A DNA stretch of 64,000 nucleotides, from the NCBI RefSeq assembly GCF_022844465.1, contig NZ_JALHLP010000014.1, positions 47,189 to 111,188 on the forward strand, in the 5' to 3' direction. Source of the stretch: Bradyrhizobium sp. (GTDB lineage Bacteria; Pseudomonadota; Alphaproteobacteria; Rhizobiales; Xanthobacteraceae). The position numbers and the translations under genes are program-made. The notes under the pieces were generated by a model, which saw nothing but the letters and a program-made list of their open reading frames with translations, did not search any database and was not told the DNA's origin. This document shows positions 1,557 through 51,332 of the stretch, one piece after another. Every line of letters begins with the position of its first letter. Positions within the stretch are counted from its first letter, which is position 1.

Positions 1557-2015
1557 TCACGGCTTGTCCTCTTGGATATCATCAGCATCCGTGAGGGACG
1601 CATTAGCGGAAGGGTTCCCTCCCCCCTTGCGGGGGAGGGTTAGGGAGAGGGGTGCCGCTTGCTCCGCTGCCAGACCAATGGCGATAACAACACCCTCGAG
1701 ATTGTTCAGGACATCGTCATTGGTAAATCGGAGCACTCGATAGCCGCGCGATACAAGCCATTGATCGCGCCTGGCGTCGTGCCGGAGGCGCTCTTCCAAA
1801 TCGTGGCTTTCGCCATCAACCTCGACAACCAGCTTGCAGGAATGTGAAACAAAATCGGCGATGTAGTTGCCCATCGGAGTCTGACGGCGAAAGCGTAGGC
1901 CAACGAGCCGCTTTGCCTTGAGATGACGCCACAGCAACGTCTCCGCACGAGTCATCTCGCGCCTCAGCCGTTTTGCACGATCTCTCTGAACGTTGCTTAC
2001 CTCGTCGTGCGGCAT
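1557..2015 (-). CDS. DUF559 domain protein (Vsr-like / PD-(D/E)XK-type endonuclease fold), inserted between ureB and ureC
   Basis: ORF 1557..2087; likely start MPHDEVSNVQRD at 2015. Contains AETLLWRHLKAKRLVGLRFRRQ..IADFVSHSCKLVVEVDGESH..RDQWLVSRGYRVLRFTNDDVL, typical of DUF559. Confidence 0.85.
   Translation of the reverse strand: MPHDEVSNVQRDRAKRLRREMTRAETLLWRHLKAKRLVGLRFRRQTPMGNYIADFVSHSCKLVVEVDGESHDLEERLRHDARRDQWLVSRGYRVLRFTNDDVLNNLEGVVIAIGLAAEQAAPLSLTLPRKGGGNPSANASLTDADDIQEDKP
1617..1652. repeat. family C repeat C2, left arm of inverted repeat around DUF559
   Basis: CCCTCCCCCCTTGCGGGGGAGGGTTAGGGAGAGGGG; reverse complement of 2017..2052 with one mismatch. Confidence 0.9.
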
Positions 2016-2016
2016 A

Positions 2017-2052
2017 CCCCTCTCCCCAACCCTCCCCCGCAAGGGGGGAGGG
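2017..2052. repeat. family C repeat C3, right arm of inverted repeat around DUF559
   Basis: CCCCTCTCCCCAACCCTCCCCCGCAAGGGGGGAGGG; ends 1 nt before the DUF559 start codon. Confidence 0.9.
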
Positions 2053-2083
2053 AGCCTTGCCAGAGCGCTCCCCTCACGCGCGA

Positions 2084-6516: not shown

Positions 6517-6666
6517 CCCCTCTCCCGCTTGCGGGGGAGGGTTGGGGTGGGGGTCTGTCCACGAGCGCCAGCGCCCGGTGCAGGCACCCCCACCCGCCGC
6601 GCTCTGACGAGCACGTCGACCTAAGAGCGAGCTTCGCTCGTCTCGACCCCCGCAAGCGGGAGAGGT
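6517..6666. repeat. palindromic repeat family C (copy C4)
   Basis: CCCCTCTCCCGCTTGCGGGGGAGGGTTGGGGTGGGGG...CCCCCGCAAGCGGGAGAGG; urtB-urtC junction. Confidence 0.9.
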
Positions 6667-51076: not shown

Positions 51077-51169
51077 GACGCTGCTTTCCGGGGTTGGCGG
51101 TCAGCGCAGGAGGCAAGCGGATTGGGGGGCGAAGGTCAATATGAGAAGCCTGCCGCGCGTTCGGTGCGC

Positions 51170-51332
51170 TCCCTCTCCCGCTTGCGGGGGAGGGTCGGGG
51201 TGGGGGTGCCGCCGCGGTGATAGCGTCAGAGGTCAAGCGCGGCTGGCGCAAAATAAAGTAGAGACGGATTCGCGGAGATTCCCCCACCCACCTCGCTTTG
51301 CTCGGCACCCTCCCCCGCAAGCGGGAGAGGGA
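51170..51332. repeat. palindromic repeat family C (copy C5)
   Basis: CTCCCTCTCCCGCTTGCGGGGGAGGGTCGGGGTGGGGGTG...CCCCCACCCACCTCG...ACCCTCCCCCGCAAGCGGGAGAGGGA; glpK-SDR junction. Confidence 0.9.

Follow-up and report, generated by a model that had tools for sequence, protein, structure and literature searches.

DUF559 endonucleases as candidate cognate enzymes of untagged, hairpin-forming REPs in Bradyrhizobium and other bacteria

On balance, we consider it probable that the DUF559 endonuclease encoded between ureB and ureC in a Bradyrhizobium genome is the cognate enzyme of its own REP family, which it would recognize, cut, and spread from a gene that has become domesticated. The evidence comprises the framing of the gene by inverted repeats, sequence-class specificity, copy number covariation, dispersal of the repeats, a fold and residues compatible with a nuclease, and gene-free sites, all as read from sequence comparisons and a structure model. 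REP-type repeats are common among bacteria, and to our knowledge, a dedicated REP enzyme is known only for the GTAG-tagged families. If a large untagged class also had its enzymes, from an unrelated family, the origin of those repeats would be accounted for, and a DUF whose members include E. coli YcjD would gain a function.

A framed nuclease gene in the urease operon

In the window (the whole 64,000-nucleotide stretch of Bradyrhizobium DNA that was analyzed), a gene for a DUF559 endonuclease of the Vsr/EDxHD-type PD-(D/E)XK group occupies positions 1557 to 2015 of the minus strand, starting with ATG and encoding 152 amino acids. This open reading frame matches Pfam DUF559 (PF04480) with an E value of 2e-38 (131 bits versus a cutoff of 20.6) and lies between the two repeat arms, with UreB upstream and UreC, read from the sequence, downstream. 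The preliminary description had reported 36-bp inverted arms around the gene between ureB and ureC, and these are indeed present: the arms at 1608 to 1653 (minus strand) and 2016 to 2061 (plus strand) are inverted over 46 nt with 91% complementarity and a separation of 362 nt, and their 36-nt core has a single mismatch position. Each arm folds into a 9-bp GC hairpin with an unpaired C-rich head in front. The inverted-repeat score at this locus was 74, and all control windows in that same scan scored below 40.

As the same description had noted, the left arm, on the 3' side of the gene, is translated in frame as part of the DUF559 C terminus (PLSLTLPRKGGGN), and the right arm, on the 5' side, touches the start codon (ATG, 2015 to 2013). 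The end of the right arm (ggagaggggt on the minus strand) stands immediately before the ATG and could serve the gene as a ribosome-binding site. Farther out are short extensions, both given on the plus strand, at 2071 to 2078 on the right (CCCTCACG; relatives retain GTGAGGTGAGCAC there on the gene strand) and at 1590 to 1597 on the left (CGTGAGGG; relatives retain GCGTCCCTCAC there on the gene strand). A third REP, previously missed, lies at about 1464 to 1532 on the plus strand in the orientation of the right arm, turning the locus into a +/-/gene/+ array; its computed partial match covers 1466 to 1481 only, and the remainder was read from the sequence. Inside its hairpin loop is a small palindrome (about 27 bp, GAGCGAGCTTCGCTCGC-like), which was also seen in REP loops at L140 and L151; a REP at L156 has a different palindromic insert. 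Between the genes for the beta and gamma urease subunits (2400 to 2490), the window contains a CGTCATTCCGGGGC-type repeat resembling the CGTC/Br-REP families (PMC3733652, PMC5082802).

The solo copies described at 6517 and 51170 were recovered by sequence match at 6517 to 6554 and 51169 to 51208, both on the minus strand. The first is a solo dispersed REP, and the second forms a REPIN-like dimer with a degenerate inverted partner, also a sequence match, at 51307 to 51332 (plus strand). In the 5.0-Mb source genome, DUF559 was matched four times and the left arm 23 times (BLAST), with several of the arm matches forming inverted pairs 50 to 100 bp apart; two of its DUF559 genes are framed by the window's REP and a third by a different inverted repeat.

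Among 35 loci with class A genes, nearly all read the downstream REP in frame, and in most the REP end touches the ATG. Such an arrangement is what would be expected if the REPs were passive, serving DUF559 expression (as ribosome-binding site or terminator) or accumulating there while the protein acts in, for example, very-short-patch repair or defense, and the ties of VsrA, a Caulobacter DUF559 protein, to cytosine methylation and DNA damage (PMC12907096) likewise speak for this view and against a role on REPs. We regard this explanation as improbable, as neither the class-specific covariation of genes with dispersed REPs nor the E. coli pattern, both described below, would be expected under it, and the same geometry is built from repeats of unrelated sequence in other phyla.

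The encoded enzyme

The structure model is confident at residues 8 to 120, the conserved core, and the REP-encoded tail (residues 122 to 152) is predicted to be disordered. The best structural matches are 3hrl and I-Bth0305I (Foldseek TMt of 0.79 for the latter), with Vsr weaker. Residues E25, E65, D67, and H71 are invariant and D54 and D80 nearly so, a set that would fit an EDxHD-type site, and the conserved nuclease residues together with the fold place the protein in DUF559. The Vsr model TIGR00632 gave 18.5 bits on the window protein, far under its cutoff of 97.85. The window gene matched only DUF559 and a restriction endonuclease (REase) model below cutoff, and the Y1/HuH transposase domain was absent from it.

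Framing as a general property of DUF559 genes

The framing of DUF559 genes by repeats is a rule and no local accident. In a set of 36 loci, nearly all from Bradyrhizobium and gathered by similarity to the window's DUF559 protein, 90 REPs fall in the 21 kb within 300 bp of DUF559 versus 10 in the remaining 301 kb, a density about 126 times that elsewhere, and 29 of the 36 loci have an inverted REP pair within 100 bp of the gene. The genome-wide association of DUF559 with the repeats that the preliminary description had envisaged is thus supported. When Bradyrhizobium loci were chosen by HMM score instead, 27 of 29 in one sample and 25 of 40 in another had inverted-repeat scores of at least 40, a value that none of the control windows beside the first sample attained.

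Across a Pseudomonadota sample, 13 of 28 DUF559 loci scored at least 40, with one control window at 44. Framing repeats were found at 12 of 36 scored distant loci, including those of Planctomycetota, Poribacteria, Bacteroidota, and Bacillota, and no framing repeat was found at the other 24; about half of the sampled DUF559 genes outside Bradyrhizobium were without one. In the four further phyla, the repeats have other sequences and the same design, namely, a CCCC(T/C)C-type head and a GC hairpin. One Poribacteria genome contains 74 dispersed copies of its DUF559-framing repeat (reversed-pattern control, 0). A phage collection yielded five weak DUF559 matches, and plasmid-borne matches pointed mainly to E. 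coli and Neisseria. At one Neisseria gonorrhoeae locus, REP-like repeats flank the DUF559 gene on both sides in direct instead of inverted orientation.

One site per subgroup

Bradyrhizobium DUF559 subgroups have mean identities of about 66 to 88% within and about 38 to 60% between them, and every subgroup has one conserved genomic site and its own REP type; one flank cluster contains two protein types, B and C. The 30 ureB-ureC junctions compared include 11 with DUF559 and REP, 3 with REP only, 4 of 0 to 31 bp, 10 with other content, and 2 without resolution; the site is gene-free in many relatives. At two loci (L151 and L162), there is a second unit in which the REPs remain together with the final portion of the gene. 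Different genes sit in the interval at five others (L141, L146, L152, L153, and L163), the product at L153 being similar to an HD-domain protein, as judged by eye.

The idea of a mobile cassette, raised in the preliminary description, survives in part: the spread of REPs and REP dimers is plausible from their dispersal, and a hopping gene is rejected because each subgroup sits at one conserved site. That the whole REP-DUF559-REP unit moves as an element would be in line with the many relatives whose ureB-ureC interval has no unit, with inverted ends that reach further outward, and with the nearly identical inverted arms of about 100 bp around a DUF559 gene at L233. The L233 unit is possibly young, and another DUF559 copy lies 5 kb off. 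Set against these points, each subgroup has a single conserved set of flanks genus-wide, and the target duplication that had been suggested was not seen in clean form around a gene unit; we judge such movement very unlikely. By the same two observations, the unit does not qualify as an insertion sequence or transposon.

Repeat copy number follows the cognate gene class

Because the framing REPs are inherited along with the gene, dispersed copies were used to examine covariation across 100 Bradyrhizobium genomes, with framing copies subtracted from the REP counts and with separate search patterns, one counting REP-B and palindromic forms and a second run for REP-A. REP-A/C counts tracked class A/C genes (P value = 5e-4) and not class B genes (P value = 0.16), and REP-B counts tracked class B genes (P value = 2e-4) and not class A/C genes (P value = 0.56). 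Tree-aware regression over 30 genomes kept the same pattern (t = 4.8 and 2.7 versus 0.4 and 0.7). Three genomes (G002, G050, and G089) depart from this pattern, being rich in REPs although no cognate gene was found in them; gene loss or assembly gaps might explain these cases. In genome G082, REP-B occurs with another REP type in dozens of similar dimers dispersed at unrelated sites, and the repeats have the makeup of REPINs, that is, two inverted REPs with a short spacer in many dispersed copies. DUF559 may be the cause of REP dispersal.

A RAYT (Y1 transposase) of the same genome could in principle move these REPs, with DUF559 as a bystander, and Y1_Tnp matches do occur in 62 of the 100 Bradyrhizobium genomes. 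Yet true RAYT loci of the genus (L179 to L183) have their own, different frame of GTAG-type REPs (GTGGGCACGC..GCCCACCCTACG), in agreement with PMC3733652, and some of the 38 genomes without a Y1_Tnp match are rich in REPs (G004, G060, G095, G010, G077, and G062). A RAYT as the mover of the CCCCTC-type REP is contradicted by these two observations, and we give it next to no credence. The RAYT loci constitute a parallel REP system within the same genus.

E. coli ycjD

YcjD is a DUF559 member earlier assigned to PD-(D/E)XK beside Vsr (PMC1189080). Downstream of ycjD in E. coli come REPs built on the same plan as well as a duplicate of the gene's 3' end. In a spread sample of 60 rows, the 37 genomes with ycjD had 11 to 28 REP places (median, 19) and the 22 without it had 1 to 14 (median, 4), with the presence and absence of ycjD clustered by lineage and therefore representing few independent events. 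A control scan for PF04480 had no E. coli in its list, though K-12 ycjD is annotated as DUF559.

The sole clean filled/empty REP site found is pstB-pstA, where E. coli strains differ by 92 bp with AACCGTGT repeats at the edges and where either direction of change is possible. Among other E. coli REP sites at which clean target duplications were sought, yihR-yihS is too diverged and zntA-tusA is filled in nearly all sampled genomes. At cpxA-yiiM and ypfG-tkt, the intergenic sequence, itself bearing repeats, is exchanged for another such sequence, with no insertion; whole REP types differ there between the intergenic alleles of the strains (L298 and L304 to L308).

Such swaps are what a homing-type or gene conversion enzyme might produce, with REPs as targets and existing repeat alleles converted or replaced instead of transposed to new sites. 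The match in sequence and fold to the EDxHD homing endonuclease I-Bth0305I points the same way, as do the 3'-terminal remnants of the gene itself that adjoin REPs at L151 and L162 in Bradyrhizobium and in E. coli K-12. Against this, the dozens of G082 dimers, similar to one another yet located at unrelated sites, and the 74 copies in the Poribacteria genome suggest spread to new sites, and we consider conversion alone rather unlikely, if less so than the other alternatives.

A putative mechanism and comparison with known systems

For DUF559 as the cognate enzyme, what we infer is REP binding, REP cutting, and dispersal driven by cutting. The EDxHD/Vsr-type endonuclease would recognize the C-rich head and hairpin of its REP and nick or cut there, and subsequent repair or reinsertion would maintain and spread copies of the REP and of its REPIN-like dimers. 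The gene would be domesticated, with one site per class, vertical inheritance, and boundaries formed by the repeats that it serves, like RAYTs. On the reading that fits best, DUF559 may be the domesticated, cognate partner to an extensive superfamily of untagged REPs and so a RAYT analogue based on a different kind of enzyme, unrelated to the Y1 transposase. More broadly, there is perhaps an even chance that a whole bacterial superfamily of hairpin repeats with CCCC(T/C)C heads, distributed over five phyla or more, owes its spread to dedicated DUF559 nucleases, E. coli YcjD among them, acting without a Y1 transposase. A report linking DUF559 or Vsr with REPs was not found in the literature searched, a search whose reach did not extend to bioRxiv and most subscription journals.

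The resemblance to RAYTs noticed in the preliminary description is reinforced by the inverted framing, the class-specific covariation with REP number, the E. coli data, and the gene-free ureB-ureC sites. Like RAYT/TnpA-REP systems, DUF559 is a small lone gene within inverted REPs at a fixed site and vertically inherited, as RAYTs are (PMC8049555), and it is accompanied by dispersed cognate REPs and inverted REP dimers whose copy number is tied to the presence of the gene. In contrast, the enzyme is a Vsr/EDxHD PD-(D/E)XK nuclease and not a Y1 HuH transposase, and the GTAG tag is missing from the repeats, whose head is C-rich. I-Bth0305I and other EDxHD homing endonucleases share the catalytic fold and similar conserved acidic and histidine residues, whereas the window gene has no intron or intein context and sits among genome-dispersed repeats. 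From the Vsr mismatch endonuclease, the protein is set apart by its score far below the TIGR00632 cutoff. Finally, CGTC-tagged and untagged palindromic repeats have been reported as REP families without a dedicated transposase (Rocco 2013, PMC3733652). The DUF559-linked repeats are likewise a REP class without a dedicated transposase, but they are distinguished by the CCCC(T/C)C head and by a candidate enzyme that can now be named.
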